From assembly GCF_037975245.1 (NCBI RefSeq), contig NC_092576.1, positions 1,004,501 through 1,068,500 of the forward strand: a stretch of DNA of 64,000 nt, written 5' to 3'. Positions within the stretch are counted from its first letter, which is position 1. Each line of letters opens with the position of its first letter. Source of the stretch: Apostichopus japonicus. Taxonomy: Eukaryota; Echinodermata; Holothuroidea; Aspidochirotida; Stichopodidae. Shown one piece after another: positions 2,797-59,410 of the stretch. Below the pieces are notes generated by a model. The model was not told the origin of the DNA, searched no databases, and was given only the letters and a program-made list of their open reading frames with translations. The position numbers and the translations under genes are program-made.

Positions 2797-3160
2797 TACA
2801 ACAGCACAGATACAACAGCGAGTGGAATTTTCCGTAAGTAGCAGCACAGGTACAAAAGCGAGTGGAATTTTCCATAAGTAACGGCACGGGTACAAAAGGG
2901 AGTGGAATTTTCCATAAGTGACAGCAAGGGTACAAGAGCGAGTGGAATTTTCGGTAAGTAACAGCACAGGTACAAGAGCGAGTGGGAACTTCCGTAAGTA
3001 ACAGCACGGGTACAAGAGCAAGTGGAATTTTCCACAAGTAAAAACACAGATACAAGAGCGCGTGGAATTTGCTGTAAGTAACAGCACAGGTACAAGAGGG
3101 AGTGGAATTTGCTGTTAGTAACAGCACAGGTACAAGAGCGAGTGGAATTTTAAGTATGAG
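2797..3160. repeat. 40-bp minisatellite in last LNX intron, about nine copies
   Basis: Roughly nine tandem copies of a 40-bp unit built around AGCGAGTGGAATTTTCC followed by GTAAGTAACAGCAC. Four copies contain the perfect 5' splice-site consensus GTAAGTA, at 2834, 2954, 2994 and 3074. Because 40 is not a multiple of three, long open frames arise on the - strand in all three frames. These are repeat artefacts. The array ends 60 bp before the last LNX exon. Confidence 0.9.
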
Positions 3161-3223
3161 AATAAGTGCTAGTAGTACCTTAACTCTTTCATGAGCATCC
3201 ATTTCTTTCTTCTCTCATCTCAG

Positions 3224-3359
3224 GTGTGGAGATCAGGTCATGGAGGTCAACGGACAGTCCCTCCGTAGTTCCACTCACAGCGCAGCAGTTTCGGTGCTGA
3301 AACAGGTCAGTCAAACAGCAGAACTACTGATCATCAGCTGGCCGGGAACTGTTGTCTGA
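3224..3359 (+). CDS. LNX: LNX-type E3 ligase, terminal coding exon (end of PDZ4)
   Basis: Acceptor TCTCATCTCAG. The first base completes a lysine codon from the previous exon, giving CGDQVMEVNGQSL, the PDZ motif GDxILxVNG, then helix B and the final strand. The reading frame stops (TGA 3357-3359) directly after ISWPGTVV. Vertebrate LNX proteins also terminate a few residues after a final SWPGT, so both the end of the domain and the end of the protein match the family. PDZ4 is complete and shows no frameshift. A first polyadenylation signal (AATAAA) lies 20 bases after the stop at 3379, and others follow at 4197, 5406 and 6213. Confidence 0.9.
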
Positions 3360-8087: not shown

Positions 8088-8610
8088 ACATTGTCCTGAT
8101 AGTTTACAGAGAGGTAGTGCGCTATCTTTGCCTGTCAGTGAAAAAGATGGTATGGGTTGTGATTGTCCTGGAAGTTTAGAGAGAGACAGTCTGCAAACTA
8201 TACATGCCTGTCAGCGATGAAGATGTTATGGGTTGTGATTGTCCTGAAAGTTGAGAGAGAGTCAGTCTGCAAACTATATATGCCTGTCAGCGAAGAAGAT
8301 GGTATGGGTTGTGATTGTCCTGAAAGTTTAGAGAGAGACAATCTGCAAACTATCTTCGCCTGTCAGCGATGAAGAGGGTATGGGTTGTGATTGTCCTGAA
8401 AGTTGAGAGAGAGTCAGTCTGCAAACTATATATGCCTGTCAGCGAAGAAGATGGTATGGGTTGTGATTGTCCTGGAAGTTTAGAGAGAGTCAGTCTGCAA
8501 ACTATACATGCCTGTCAGCGATGAAGATGTTATGGGTTGTGATTGTCCTGAAAGTTGAGAGAGAGGCAGTCTGCAAACTATATATGCCTGTCAGTGAAGA
8601 AGATGGTATG
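8075..8610. repeat. 76-bp minisatellite, about seven copies
   Basis: The motif TATGGGTTGTGATTGTCCTG recurs at exactly 76-bp spacing (8151, 8227, 8303, 8379, 8455, 8531, and a variant at 8607), with a diverged first copy before 8151. Each unit also contains GAGAGAGTCAGTCTGC and ATGCCTGTCAGCG. Two subtypes alternate (GAAGTTTAGAG and AAAGTTGAGAG), suggesting expansion as a dimer. Short open frames across it are by-products. Confidence 0.92.
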
Positions 8611-9753
8611 TGTTTTGGCAATATAATGCCGATGGTTTGTCCTATGACCATTTTACTTGGCTCGGACAGTTTCACCTGGGTCAATAATTTGAAATATTCA
8701 AAACTTTTGAATGGGTATGATAGGATGCTTCAAAGGATACGTCACCCAAGGTAGAACCTTGAGCATGAAAAACTCCAATGGTAATTCTGACATAAATTAA
8801 TGGGATTACCAGATAAGATATACTCGGAAAATAGAGGGCAGCCTAAATCTGGTGGGTAAATCTTAACTACTGCTGGATTGGATGGGTGGATGGGATAGCA
8901 TATGTGGGTAGAGTTAAAAGAGTTTATGGGAAGGAGGAACAGGGTAGGATTGGCTACATGACCCAGAGATTAGGTTGGTGGGGGCGGGGGGAAGGGGGTT
9001 GGGGGGTTAAGGTTGGTGGCGTCCAATATTCTACCATTTTTCTGTTTGTGTGTGTGCAAGTCTCTGTGTGTTTGTCTGTGGAGTGTCTTTTGTTTCTGTT
9101 GTTTTCTCTGTGCACAGATGTTCTCATTTAATTTGTACATTGTTCTTTATACAGAGCAGTGGTTGTATTCTGATTTCTGATACACCAATTATTTCATTCA
9201 TGTTGGTCTGAGTACTACAATGTAAATAAATGTGCAATCAATTTTGATGAAAACTAACTGAAGTATTCTTTTATTTATCTTTTTATTTTTTTTATTTTTT
9301 TTATTTATGTGATCTTTTTAATGTATTTATGTTTTCTTTTTAATTAATTAATAATTTGTTTATTTATTATCTGTGGGTTATGATGCTGTGCAGAAAGGAG
9401 CACAGCAACATTTATTGTAGCCATCCTTGCCCCCCCCCCCCCAACAAATACATTCGTGGGAGCTCAGCCCCCTTCCCCACCCCCAGCAGCAGACATAAGA
9501 TAACCAAACGTATATACAGAACAAAATATACAGTGTGTGCGTTACAACAGTATAAAGTTATTCAACATCGTTCAAAAGTTGCAAAATATTGCACCATTTC
9601 GCTTTTAAGAACTGTGCACTTTACCCAACCCTTCTCAAAGTGGAGGGGCCACCAATTCCTTTAGAAGCCTCTTCCTGGACGACATAGCATCTAAACCCCC
9701 CCCCCCCGCCCAACTCATCCCCCATCTCTGCCCTACCCTGTGTAGAAGAAGTA
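8611..9753. other. Non-coding spacer with homopolymer tracts
   Basis: Nothing gene-like was found. The stretch has a G-rich segment at 8980-9010, T/A-rich low-complexity DNA at 9260-9360, and poly-C runs near 9430 and 9700 just before the hAT element. Confidence 0.5.
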
Positions 9754-14921: not shown

Positions 14922-16018
14922 ACATATCGTGAATTTAACTCGGATCCAACAAGATACAGTACAGTACATAACCTTTTGAAGCTCAGAGAGTACAGTTATT
15001 CAAACTTCTATCCAGGGAAGTAAGATGTCTGATACGATTAACGAAACCACCCCACTCATCAAGGATGACCGTGACAATATCCCAAAGTCCAGGGGTGCTG
15101 TCCTCGCTTCTCGTAGATGGATCACCGTAGAGCCAATCATCATGGCAGTTGCGTTAGGGTATGGTATCCTAATGGTAGTCCAATCACAATATGTTCACCA
15201 TTATTTTACCAACATATATGGCGGAAACGTTTCCTACTCCCAGTGCTTGCCAAATATTTCGGACTCGCAGCTTCGGGTGAACGAAGAGATCCAGGCGGAG
15301 ACCACGCTATGGAGTATTTATATGACAGTGTGTGTCTCGATAGGGAGCATCCCTGTGGGGTTCGTGTTGGGATCGTACAGCGACCAAATCGGACGTAAAA
15401 TACCTCTGGGCATTTCCGTCTCGGGGATGTTTCTCTGCTCCTTGTCCAGTTTCCTCACCATCCTGTTTGAGCTTCCGCTCTGGTTCCTGCTGCTAGGGAC
15501 GGGTATCCTAGGTCTGAGCGGTGGGTTCATGCTGATGGTATCGGTGTGCATGTCCTACGCGGCGGACGTCACCGACGAGAACAACCGCATGATTCACATC
15601 ATCGTCCTGGATGTGCTGCTCTTCCTCATGGTCGGTGTTCCTCAGCTCGGAATCGGATTTCTCATAAAAAATGTTGGATATGCGGTACCGTTCTTGATCG
15701 TCATGACGGTGTCGCTGTTAGTGCTCGCGTACATCATTATACCAGGATTATTGCTGGAGACCGTGGAGAGGAACGTAGTGGGCGGGGTGAGGTCCCCCGT
15801 AAAGAAGACCTTCAGTGATGCCATGGGTATACTGAAGGTGAAAGAGAACAGACGGCACATCAAGATAATCCTCTACATGGTTGTCGCGTTTGCTATGACC
15901 GGTTTTGGGTCAGGTAGCTTCGCAGTAACTGTGCTGTATGGGATGGGGGCGCCATTGTGTCTGTCACCAGAAGATATTGGATTATTTCTCTTTGGTTCGC
16001 TCATGTCTGCTGGAGTTG
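14922..16018 (+). CDS. SLC46: SLC46-family MFS transporter, coding exon 1 (CDS starts 15025)
   Basis: The exon follows a TTCCTTTTACAG acceptor. The first ATG at 15025 (AAGATG context) opens 331 codons up to the GTAAGT donor at 16019. The product is a polytopic membrane protein. The N-terminus has an acidic dileucine-like signal (ETTPLI, residues 7-12) of the kind used for endolysosomal sorting. TM1 is near residues 33-52. A long first loop has possible N-glycosylation sites at N68 and N77. The MFS motif A, GSYSDQIGRKIPLG (about 116-129), lies between TM2 and TM3, and further helices follow to TM8-9. Length and layout fit SLC46 (proton-coupled folate transporter and relatives), which move folate or related organic anions. 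The substrate cannot be told here. It joins in frame to the exon at 16528. Confidence 0.9.
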
Positions 16019-16527: not shown

Positions 16528-16659
16528 GTTCTATGATAGGGGGCGCTATACTTCCATTCTGCCTCAGCACCTTTGGTATGATGTATGTCTCCTACCTAAG
16601 TAACCAAGCAGCTTTCGTCGCAACAGCCCTCGCAAAGACTGAATGGTATTTGCTTCTTG
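16528..16659 (+). CDS. SLC46: SLC46-family transporter, coding exon 2
   Basis: Acceptor CTTCAATGTCAG, donor GTAAGTTG. It enters in phase 1, completing a glycine codon, and encodes SMIGGAILPFCLSTFGMMYV and a following loop ending TEWYLLLG, consistent with the ninth to tenth membrane helices. It leaves in phase 1, again splitting a glycine codon. Confidence 0.88.
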
Positions 16660-17711: not shown

Positions 17712-17795
17712 GAGCATGCCTTGGTGCTTTTAGGTTGCTAGCTCTTCCCATTGTCAGGACTGACCTTTCCAAGATGGTGAAACCTGATGAACAAG
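17712..17795 (+). CDS. SLC46: SLC46-family transporter, coding exon 3
   Basis: Acceptor TTACTGGTTTCAG, donor GTAAGGAG. This 84-base exon encodes ACLGAFRLLALPIVRTDLSK and MVKPDEQG. The R-x-x-x-x-x-P-I-V-R-T-DLSKMV stretch is the typical cytoplasmic loop of SLC46 proteins before TM11 (K/R, then S-K-V/M-V, then D-E-Q-G). It is phase 1 on both sides, so the glycine of DEQG is completed by the GT that begins every repeat copy downstream. Confidence 0.88.
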
Positions 17796-18201
17796 GTAAG
17801 GAGAGAAAATCGTTACTTGAGGTCCATGATGATCACATTATCAAAGTCATCTCTGCTCTTTTTCTTGACCAAAGAAGGGTAAATTGATAACTGGACCAGT
17901 GGTAGCAATGAACAAGGGTAAAAGATCAGCCATCAGGACTTCTGGTCAAAGGTCATCTGAGGTCAAACTTGACTTCTAGGGGACACTTAATTTGATATCT
18001 ACTGCTCTCCCTGGGATTTGAACCCATGAATGTTGTATTTATAAATAATTGTTTGTCCATTTAATATCTGCACATTTTCAAGTCTTGAAACTGTGTCACA
18101 GTATAGTATTGCTGGTAACTTGTTGGCAGAGTTTGTTCATCAGGGGTTCATTAGCAATTGTCTTTCCACGAATTACTTGTATAGTTATGTTGTCTACCGT
18201 C

Positions 18202-19090
18202 ATGGCAGAGTTTGTCTTACTGGTGTCTTCTATAATTTCAACAATGTCCTTTCCTCAGCCAATTGTTGTCTTTTATTTGTCTTCTTCTACAGGTACGCTG
18301 TTCTCCATCATCGGTATTGTCAATAATTTGGCAGACTTTGTCTTACTGGTGTCTTCTATAATTTCAACATTGTCTTTTCCTCAGCCAGTTCTTGTCTTTT
18401 ATTTGTCTTCTTCTACAGGTACGCTGTTCTCCATCATCGGTATTGTCAATAATTTGGCAGAGTTTGTCTTACTGGTGTCTTCTATAATTTCAACATTGTC
18501 TTTTCCTCAGCCAGTTCTTGTCTTTTATTTGTCTTCTTCTACAGGTACGCTGTTCTCCATCATCGGTATTGTCAATAATTTGGCAGACTTTGTCTTACTG
18601 GTGTCTTCTATAATTTCAACATTGTCTTTTCCTCAGCCAGTTCTTGTCTTTTATTTGTCTTCTTCTACAGGTACGCTGTTCTCCATCATCGGTATTGTCA
18701 ATAATTTGGCAGACTTTGTCTTACTGGTGTCTTCTATAATTTCAACATTGTCTTTTCCTCAGCCAGTTCTTGTCTTTTATTTGTCTTCTTCTACAGGTAC
18801 GCTGTTCTCCATCATCGGTATTGTCAATAATTTGGCAGACTTTGTCTTACTGGTGTCTTCTATAATTTCAACATTGTCTTTTCCTCAGCCAGTTCTTGTC
18901 TTTTATTTGTCTTCTTCTACAGGTACGCTGTTCTCCATCATCGGTATTGTCAATAATTTGGCAGAGTTTGTCTTACTGGTGTCTTCCATAATTTCAACAT
19001 TGTCCTTTCCTCAGCCAATTGTTGTCTTTTATTTGTCTTCTTCTACAGGTACGCTGTTCTCCATCATCGGTATTGTCAATAATTTGGCAG
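18202..19090 (+). repeat. In-frame 126-bp tandem array of splice acceptor plus exon 4 start
   Basis: Seven copies of TTCTTCTACAG|GTACGCTG lie at 126-bp spacing, with GT at 18293, 18419, 18545, 18671, 18797, 18923 and 19049. A partial copy from 18202 and a more decayed one from about 18122 precede them. Each unit carries a pyrimidine tract, the exon 4 acceptor, and the exon 4 opening that encodes TLFSIIGIVNNLA, followed by FVLLVSSIISTLSFPQPVLV and FYLSSSTG. The unit is 42 codons with no stop, so the frame stays open through the whole array (18049-19207). Inner copies are nearly identical, differing mainly by Glu/Asp. The first and last share older variants (CCAATTGTTGTC). The last copy runs into the authentic exon 4. 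Confidence 0.95.
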
Positions 19091-19205
19091 AGTTGGTCTT
19101 CCCCGTGTCCTTACAAGTCATTTACGCAGCATCGTTGTCTTTCAATAGTCAGTTTGTCTTCTACCTTTCTGCTGGCCTTATATTGATTCCATGGGTCATC
19201 ACAGT
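19049..19205 (+). CDS. SLC46: SLC46-family transporter, coding exon 4 (minimal form)
   Basis: In the minimal model the exon uses the last of the seven repeated acceptors. It completes the glycine codon from exon 3 and encodes TLFSIIGIVNNLAELVFPVS (TM11) and then AASLSFNSQFVFYLSAGLIL plus IPWVITV (TM12), closely matching the end of SLC46 transporters. The donor is GTAAGTATTC. If an upstream acceptor is used (18293, 18419, 18545, 18671, 18797 or 18923), the exon grows by 42 in-frame hydrophobic codons per extra copy, up to 252. The repeat's coding segment itself resembles this exon (AEFVLL...FYLSS beside AELVFP...FYLSA), so the array arose from duplication of the exon with its acceptor. Confidence 0.87.
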
Positions 19206-20701: not shown

Positions 20702-20804
20702 AATTCTTCACCTTATGAACTGTTCTGCACCAAGCACTTCCCACCAGGGATTACAAGCGTCTCAAGACAAGCTTCATTTAGCGTCAGAACCTTCCCAGGC
20801 TTAG
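20702..20804 (+). CDS. SLC46: SLC46-family transporter, terminal exon, form 1
   Basis: Acceptor TTTCTCTGTAG. The first base completes a valine codon split by the exon 4 donor. It then encodes ILHLMNCSAPSTSHQGLQAS and QDKLHLASEPSQA before TAG at 20802. This gives a 489-residue protein (994+132+84+157+103 coding bases, exactly 490 codons with stop), close to the usual 450-490 for SLC46. The tail is hydrophilic and cytoplasmic. A polyadenylation signal AATAAA is at 21224. Confidence 0.8.
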
Positions 20805-30500: not shown

Positions 30501-30770
30501 ACTATATACAGTATACACATAGAACCTTAAAATCCAGCTAACAGGCAACTATATGAGAGCAAGTGCCATTAACCTACAGAGATAGTATAGTACTATTGTA
30601 CAAAGGAACAAAAGCAAACAAAAATTGTACATAACCAATTTCTAAGTTTTGAAACTGTCATTCTCAGATTGTGTGAATAAGTTAATTTAACAGTTAATAT
30701 GTATTTTTGGGAATAAATGCTTACTTTTCTCATTAGTCCTGAAAAGTTTCCAATATTTAAGTACAAAAGA
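27542..30770. other. Non-coding region
   Basis: No supported gene. It holds an imperfect long hairpin (28772-28920), poly-G runs at 29670 and 30416-30430, and AT-rich sequence. Open frames are short and unsupported. Confidence 0.5.
28772..28920. repeat. Imperfect palindrome with about 70-bp arms (MITE-like)
   Basis: The left arm ATCAAATGGCAGGCAA...GGACTGCCTTCAGGTTTCAAA pairs with the right arm TTTGAAACCTGAAGACAGCC...TTGCCATTGAT around a centre at 28846. The inner 30 bp of the arms match well, while the outer part is more diverged. Confidence 0.8.
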
Positions 30771-31047
30771 GTAGGGGAGGAAATATCCTGTCACCTGTAT
30801 TGGTAGTAGGGGAGGAAATATCCTGTCACCTGTATTGGTAGTAGGGGAGGAAATATCCTGTCACTTGTATTGGTAGTAGGGGAGGAAATATCCTGTCACC
30901 TGTATTGGTAGTAGGGGAGGAAATATCCTGTCACCTGTATTGGTAGTAGGGGAGGAAATATCCTGTCACCTGTATTGGTAGTAGGGGAGGAAATATCCTG
31001 TCACCTGTATTGGTAGTAGGGGAGGAAATATCCTGTCACCTGTATTG
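30771..31047. repeat. 35-bp minisatellite, eight nearly identical copies
   Basis: GTAGGGGAGGAAATATCCTG recurs every 35 bases (30771, 30806, 30841, 30876, 30911, 30946, 30981, 31016). Only one copy differs (TCACTTG for TCACCTG), so the expansion is recent. Confidence 0.95.
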
Positions 31048-42503: not shown

Positions 42504-42698
42504 AGGAAAGGACCACAACATATGATGATGTTACTGATGATCTTATTTTGTACGATCATGTACTAAAAACTTACGATCATGTACTAGAAATACAAGATCG
42601 TGTACTAACAATTTACGTTCATGTACCAAACAAATACGATCATGTACTAAAAGTATACGATCATGTTCTCAACATATCCGATCATGTACTACAAACGT

Positions 42699-43199
42699 CT
42701 ACAAAAGATTTGGGTCTCCAAAGGCATCTGTAAAAATAAGGCTATTCAAAACACTGGTACTACCGGTCCTACGATATGGATGCGAGACCTGGAGAAAGAA
42801 TAATGGGGATGAAAAGAAAAGCGATATTTTTCATAACAAATGCCTCAGGAGAGTACTAAGGATAAGATGGCAAGAACGAGTCAGCACAAAAGAACTGCTA
42901 AAGAGAGCAAAAATGGGACCACTAAGCATCGAAATTAAGAAAAGAAGATGGAAATTCACTGGGCATATATTGCGCCAAAACCCTAACAACGACAGCAACA
43001 TCAGCATGACTTGGGCACCAGAGGGCAGGAGTAAGAGAGGGCGACCAAAAACAACATGGCGCAGGGCAGTAGACAAAGAAAGAGAGGGGGCTGGTTGGCC
43101 ATCCTGGAATGAGGCCAGAAACGCAGCTGCCGACCCAGATAAATGGAGACGATCTGTGGAGGCCTTTTTTGCCTCTAGGCAAGAAGACAGATGATGATG
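42699..43199 (+). mobile_element. 5'-truncated LINE insertion with target duplication (copy A)
   Basis: Flanked by the 11-bp direct repeat ACTACAAACGT (42688-42698 and 43200-43210) and ending in an ATGATGATG tail, as in LINEs with microsatellite tails. It is open throughout to the stop at 43192-43194 and encodes the C-terminal part downstream of a reverse transcriptase: TLVLPVLRYGCETW, IFHNKCLRRVLRIRWQERVS, RRWKFTGHILRQNPNN, KRGRPKTTWRRAVDK and DPDKWRRSVEAFFASRQ. This arrangement (YGCETW, RRxLxIxW, GHxLR, RGRPxxTWRR) is typical of the region after the RT domain in many animal non-LTR elements. The catalytic RT and endonuclease are missing. The insertion lies inside the left arm of the foldback element. 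Confidence 0.9.
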
Positions 43200-59000: not shown

Positions 59001-59410
59001 TAAATGACAAGTTATTCAAATGGAACAACTTTCTAACTGTGCGTGATAAATCGTGCGCGACTCAGGAAAACTCATTTACTCGCTGCGATTCCGGGCGTCT
59101 TGTAATATGCTCTACTTTGCGCTTCAAGTTGCTCACGATTCAGTTTCTGCGAAAGGTCCATTCACACGCCACGATTTCGTCGCGCACGTCTGTCGTGCAC
59201 GACAAATCGTGAGAAAAGGACCACCACATATGATGATGTTACTGATGATCTAATTTTGTACGATCATGTACTAAAAACTTACGATCATGTACTATAAATG
59301 CACGATCATGTACTAAAAATGTACGTTCATGTACCAAACAAATACGATCATGTACTAAAAGTATACGATCATGTTCTAAACATATCCGATCATGCATGTA
59401 CTACAAACGT

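Follow-up and report, generated by a model that had tools for sequence, protein, structure and literature searches.

A 126-bp tandem array across the intron 3/exon 4 junction of an SLC46-family gene in Apostichopus japonicus

An SLC46-family gene and the array at its fourth exon

Here, we describe a tandem array that lies across a splice junction of a predicted transporter gene in Apostichopus japonicus. The window, i.e., the whole stretch of 64,000 nucleotides that was analyzed (contig NC_092576.1 of assembly GCF_037975245.1), carries this gene on the forward strand as five coding exons between 15025 and 20804, with a predicted product of 489 aa if exon 4 is entered at acceptor 19049 (Table 1). 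By sequence similarity the gene is a member of the SLC46 family, with a predicted MFS fold and full-length similarity to PCFT/SLC46A1. Its product matches the Pfam family MFS_1 (3.7e-16), and among solved structures, sequence comparison singles out one relative, the proton-coupled folate transporter (7bc6; residues 34-460, E 1.4e-34); both matches bear out the assignment to SLC46 made in a first-pass annotation of this DNA.

The alignment to 7bc6 continues unbroken across the joint of exons 3 and 4 at EQG. The 84-nt exon 3 ends in a split Gly codon ahead of TM11. According to PMC2852677, the splice mutation p.Tyr362_Gly389del of human PCFT removes 28 residues, equal to 84 nt, which implies an exon 3 of 84 nt in the human gene as well, with a presumably equivalent Gly. 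A distant paralog in the same genome (L033, C16:43.58 Mb, 27% identity) likewise has an 84-nt exon 3 (boundaries read by eye) in the same phase, followed by a single exon 4 that also starts CAG|GT. As exon 3 has this length here, in the distant paralog and, by implication, in human PCFT, the position of intron 3 appears to be old. The single exon 4 of L033 and its CAG|GT start further indicate that the AG|GT joint is not specific to the array and that one acceptor is likely the ancestral state.

L033 was found in a genome search with the gene that gave at least ten matches, five of them its own exons and at least five in distant places at 23-27% identity. About 10 kb was inspected at three of five distant matches; exons 3 and 4 were recognized in L033 only, and the other two inspected loci showed no convincing downstream exons within about 10 kb. 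Intron 3 of L033 (C16:43580500-43590400) carries, some 70-300 nt before exon 4, a stretch of about 110 nt that is duplicated in tandem at 77% and is unrelated and dissimilar to the 126-bp unit. No close paralog and no tandem copy with a comparable array was detected by tblastn (1e-3) or blastn (0.5) in 200 kb of DNA flanking the window. A search of the genome (671.6 Mb, 35 contigs) with the array DNA, in which very common words were skipped, gave a single matching place; this does not support a dispersed element as the source of the unit.

No protein covering exons 2-5, with or without cassettes, was present among 7997, 2549 and 797 candidates. At least four of the 7997 candidates were scored as matches. 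One (P0001; 99% identity, 359 aa, 8 members) represents exon 1 read on into intron 1, and a second (P0002, 53%) likewise seems to run past exon 1 as judged by eye. With identities of 24% and 23%, P0003 and P0004 are distantly related proteins.

Table 1. Coding exons of the SLC46-family gene and units of the 126-bp array (positions in the window)
Feature	Position	Strand	Remarks
SLC46 coding exon 1	15025..16018	+	994 nt; ATG at 15025
SLC46 exon 2	16528..16659	+	132 nt; 7bc6 alignment passes through
SLC46 exon 3	17712..17795	+	84 nt; end ...GAACAAG|GTAAGG (EQ + Gly first base)
Degenerate weak unit match left of array (possible decayed copy)	18123..18202	+	
Unit 1, truncated left copy	about 18203..18292	+	tail + first acceptor; 2 differences from unit 7 over unit positions 37-126
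Unit 2	18293..18418	+	126 bp, GT...AG; exon start 18293
Unit 3	18419..18544	+	1 difference from units 2, 4, 5, 6; exon start 18419
Unit 4	18545..18670	+	exon start 18545
Unit 5	18671..18796	+	exon start 18671
Unit 6	18797..18922	+	exon start 18797
Unit 7	18923..19048	+	5 differences from units 2, 4, 5, 6; exon start 18923
SLC46 exon 4	19049..19205	+	157 nt; TM11-TM12; donor AGT|GTAAGT; first 46 nt = unit 7
SLC46 exon 5, coding portion incl. stop	20702..20804	+	

The junction of intron 3 and exon 4 sits within the array, which TRF delimits to 18203-19100 with a period of 126, 7.1 copies, 98% matches and 0% indels. In form the array is a minisatellite, as its highly alike 126-bp units stand head-to-tail in one assembly. 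Consecutive units abut without an intron between them, which departs from the anatomy of a cassette exon or a mutually exclusive exon array, where copies with their own acceptor and donor are separated by introns large enough to be spliced out. Six full units lie between the first and the last acceptor, preceded by one truncated left copy; the period and copy number agree with the about seven copies previously reported, which resolve into this six-plus-one arrangement. The previously reported stretch of 18122..19205 begins too far to the left, as 18122-18202 holds only an exact 14-mer and a weak unit match (score 30) outside the array proper. Shuffled sequences match the unit as well in 7/1000 cases for 18100-18202 and in 1/1000 for 18100-18210; when compared with the tail part of the unit alone, the left-flank match is not unusual (114/2690 window pieces score as high).

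Units 2, 4, 5 and 6 are mutually identical and unit 3 carries a single change, in line with the near-identity of inner copies noted before and with recent homogenization. The tail of unit 7 is most similar to the left-edge copy. Edge units that are alike around a homogeneous middle form the pattern of array amplification from an inner copy. All copies had also been described as sharing the same exon opening. This holds for the opening 46 nt of each unit, in which only a single C/G site distinguishes units 2, 4, 5 and 6 from exon 4, but identity to exon 4 is confined to this head and the likeness declines beyond.

Tandem arrays are frequent in the surrounding DNA. In the window plus 200 kb flanks (264 kb), 19 TRF rows with a period of >=30 and >=3 copies merge into 14 non-overlapping arrays, including arrays of 138 bp x 7 and 332 bp x 3.7. 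With roughly one array every 19 kb, a genome of this kind would be expected to contain further arrays that overlap exon edges. Within the window, a 40-bp minisatellite of 8.8 copies (2800-3151) lies just upstream of a putative last PDZ-like exon (near 3223-3357, by eye); several of its units contain ACAGGTAC and CCGTAAGT, so that acceptor- and donor-like words recur. A very recent 35-bp minisatellite is present at 30770-31047 (7.9 copies, 99%), and a 76-bp array at 8122-8614 has a higher-order period of 152 bp. A 217-aa ORF at 42541-43194, which by eye resembles the tail of a retroelement polyprotein, stands behind a 21-bp array whose consensus recurs at 59259-59394.

Acceptors, reading frame and GT...AG register

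The motif TTCTTCTACAG|GTACGCTG occurs seven times at an exact spacing of 126 nt and marks seven exon starts from 18293 to 19049 (Table 1). The frame is kept with all seven acceptors. When exons 1-3 and exon 5 are added, the successive choices yield 741, 699, 657, 615, 573, 531 and 489 aa, i.e., 42 further residues per unit. The earlier description of seven in-frame acceptors with 0 to 6 extra 42-residue cassettes, each of 42 codons without a stop, was thus correct, with open reading from all seven acceptors and predicted products of 489 to 741 aa.

This openness is not in itself unusual. A fraction of 0.56 of dinucleotide shuffles keeps the unit tail open, and the chance of openness together with a length divisible by three is about 0.19 (1/3 x 0.56), or about 1 in 5. 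The six sites that vary among the units and the left copy comprise 2 synonymous and 4 non-synonymous differences; of the 243 changes that the tail could undergo, 66 (27%) would be synonymous. The amino acid replacements at the four non-synonymous sites are all mild (D/E, L/M, V/I, L/V). The unit differences give no sign of coding constraint, although the number of sites is tiny. The open frame also extends about 244 nt further to the left, ahead of the first acceptor (18049-18292), a length matched by 0.025 of shuffles; for this we offer no explanation beyond chance, which fits less well. The cassette is hydrophobic and opens with the start of TM11, as had been proposed, but the proposed likeness to TM11-TM12 does not extend to the tail, whose protein similarity to the remaining part of exon 4 is reached by 654/5000 residue and 290/5000 dinucleotide shuffles and is not significant. 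In repeated cassettes the hydropathy peaks overlap and do not resolve into two clean helices per cassette.

Exon 4 opens with GT, and intron 3 is a phase 1 intron that splits the Gly codon as G|GT. Because of this split, each duplicated unit is a complete GT...AG module, and units with this structure could be removed one by one, a property that the first-pass annotation had missed. Any unit could be kept, adding 42 in-frame residues, or spliced out as a 126-nt intron. At each unit boundary an acceptor directly abuts the donor-like CAG|GTACGC, which agrees with 7/9 positions of the donor consensus. With a donor matrix that is not fitted to this species, this donor-like site scores 8.07 bits, compared to 7.22 for the donor of exon 4 itself and 8.98, 8.98 and 11.68 for the donors of exons 1-3; joining exon 3 to any of the acceptors recreates AAG|GTACGC, again at 8.07 bits under this matrix. 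The boundaries of the array therefore have the apparent anatomy of recursive splice sites, with an acceptor followed by a donor that would be regenerated after splicing.

Origin of the array and its likely fate in splicing

Beyond its exonic head, the unit could end in former intron or in decayed exon. At the DNA level the unit-7 tail resembles the remainder of exon 4, with a score reached by 0/1000 shuffles in local and 2/1000 in global alignment, by 0/2690 window pieces and, with each of four scoring schemes, by 0/4240 windows from the flanks (fitted p from 1.1e-4 to 1.7e-3). The inner-unit tail shows less likeness (2, 3, 5 and 5 of 4240 flank windows; p 0.0014 to 0.0054). The alignment to exon 4 contains gaps of 7, 4, 2, 3 and 5 nt, so that the tail, if it is an old exon, has drifted out of frame. 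The exonic head and the GT...AG register are present in the units whichever origin the tail had, and the simplest history would be a duplication across the intron-exon boundary, towards which we lean by a clear though not large measure. A 25-nt match between 18203-18227 and 19085-19109 (84%, E 0.21) may perhaps have primed this duplication, although it is short and weak.

We consider it likely that the array is a young minisatellite that has captured a splice junction and is normally removed together with intron 3, leaving the protein unchanged. Briefly, a segment spanning the junction, from the last part of intron 3 to about nucleotide 46 of exon 4, would have been duplicated in tandem, perhaps via the short match, and then amplified from an inner copy. 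In the definition of exon 4, its own donor after 19205 would favor the nearest acceptor at 19049 and with it an exon of 157 nt. The internal exons of this gene measure 132 and 84 nt, so that an exon 4 of 283 to 913 nt, the latter resulting from the first acceptor, would be exceptional here, compared with 157 nt from the last acceptor. The array would leave with intron 3 either in a single step or in recursive steps of 126 nt, and the protein would remain 489 aa long. Splicing to one of the earlier acceptors, expected as low-level noise, would lengthen it by 42 residues for each unit with the frame intact. Several observations could be held against this proposal, namely the likeness of the unit-7 tail to exon 4, which would fit an exon duplication, the open frame ahead of the first acceptor, the weakness of the putative priming match, and the homogeneity of the units, which might stem from selection.

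The stepwise mode of this removal, in which exon 3 is joined to an early acceptor and the regenerated AAG|GTACGC steps down to exon 4, with a mature mRNA usually free of cassettes, is compatible with the main proposal but in our estimate rather unlikely to operate. It is encouraged by the acceptor|donor-like boundaries and by the exon 3-exon 4 junction, which at 8.07 bits exceeds the exon 4 donor at 7.22 under the same matrix; PMC8605326 also describes such sites as functional in Drosophila and mammals. However, the array donor lacks the consensus A at +4 and T at +6, donor strength is insufficient to account for inclusion according to that same paper, and the last acceptor is directly usable without any steps. 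The alternative hypothesis of an exon-derived array, a different origin that would be compatible with the present behavior in splicing proposed above, is possible but doubtful. It proposes that most of exon 4 was duplicated in tandem long ago and that the copies decayed, gained acceptors from pyrimidine-rich codons (a Rogers-type AGGT duplication) and were later amplified. In its favor, the unit tail continues to resemble exon 4 in collinear order past the identical 46 nt. Against it, the gaps place the best alignment out of frame, pyrimidine-rich sequence is easily aligned, the protein likeness is non-significant and the inner-unit tail is weaker.

The first-pass annotation had interpreted the array as a length-variation device, i.e., a purposeful use of different acceptors that equips an SLC46 transporter with 0 to 6 extra 42-residue hydrophobic cassettes. 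The same acceptor motif in seven copies, all in frame and with 42 codons without stop, and a hydrophobic cassette with only mild replacements are what such a device would show. Yet the chance of an open frame, the 2 synonymous against 4 non-synonymous sites, the overlapping hydropathy peaks, the lack of a public protein with exons 2-5 (with cassettes or not) among the candidates searched and the commonness of minisatellites nearby (14 in 264 kb) leave this interpretation unsupported, and an insertion before TM11 of the MFS fold would probably upset packing or topology. We regard the device as very improbable. A ladder of seven acceptor|donor sites that gives rise to in-frame SLC46 isoforms of 489 to 741 aa, with a range set by the repeat number, is only slightly less so; if it were real, any polymorphism in the length of the array would be carried over directly to the length of the transporter. 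An expansion during assembly from a lower copy number, which had also been raised before, would account for the identity of units 2, 4, 5 and 6, but the array occupies 0.9 kb inside a 46-Mb contig, the window contains no N and the edge units carry private differences, which makes such an artifact extremely improbable.

Relation to known routes of intron gain and recursive splicing

Duplication across an intron-exon boundary has a precedent in the potato RdRp gene. According to PMC4974935, the new intron there consists of the exon piece of the upstream copy and the intron piece of the downstream copy, with acceptor, tract and branch site inherited, and is documented by 106 junction reads and by outgroups. 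By analogy, a segment with the 3' part of intron 3 and the 5' part of exon 4 would give a GT...AG intron in the SLC46 gene. The potato duplication has two copies, whereas the present array has six full units and a truncated one; here the GT stands exactly at the first base of the exon. Fission yeast offers multi-copy 24-bp AGGT exon duplications with an intron that spans several units (Zhu and Niu 2013, cited in PMC4974935). These share with the SLC46 array the several tandem AGGT units, but they are exonic units of 24 bp, whereas the present units measure 126 bp and have intron-like tails.

A tandem array adjoining an exon is also known from the VNTR in intron 18 of ABCA7, whose unit starts with a splice donor and for which retention of a single unit occurs (PMC5954066). 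The ABCA7 array lies on the donor side, has a 25-bp unit and shifts the frame upon retention, in contrast to the acceptor-side position, the 126-bp unit and the preserved frame of the SLC46 array. With ratchet points and RS-exons the SLC46 array has in common the juxtaposition of acceptor and donor and a donor that would be regenerated after the first step. According to PMC8605326, inclusion in recursive splicing in Drosophila and mammals is affected by the strength of the donor, by exonic sequence and by prior splicing (EJC proxy), and RS sites are described singly, in long introns or single exons, whereas seven candidate sites stand in tandem here, 126 nt apart and with a non-consensus donor.

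The most informative description of the array is, in our opinion, that of a many-copy variant of the known intron-gain route by boundary duplication. The intron gains born from duplication that were considered here are two-copy events, with the exception of the 24-bp arrays of fission yeast (PMC4974935). The SLC46 array would show intron gain at a stage with many copies, as six in-frame GT...AG units are potentially removable.

The locus would also be a natural tandem-acceptor test, in which near-identical 3' splice sites compete at fixed steps of 126 nt. Classic tandem-acceptor experiments were reportedly performed by Kuehne et al. in 1983 and by Reed and Maniatis in 1986. RNA from one animal would discriminate between first-come acceptor choice, exon definition and stepwise recursive splicing. 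For the SLC46-family gene, the arrangement suggests that a phase 1 intron that splits a Gly codon as G|GT predisposes its junction to become a self-removing repeat.
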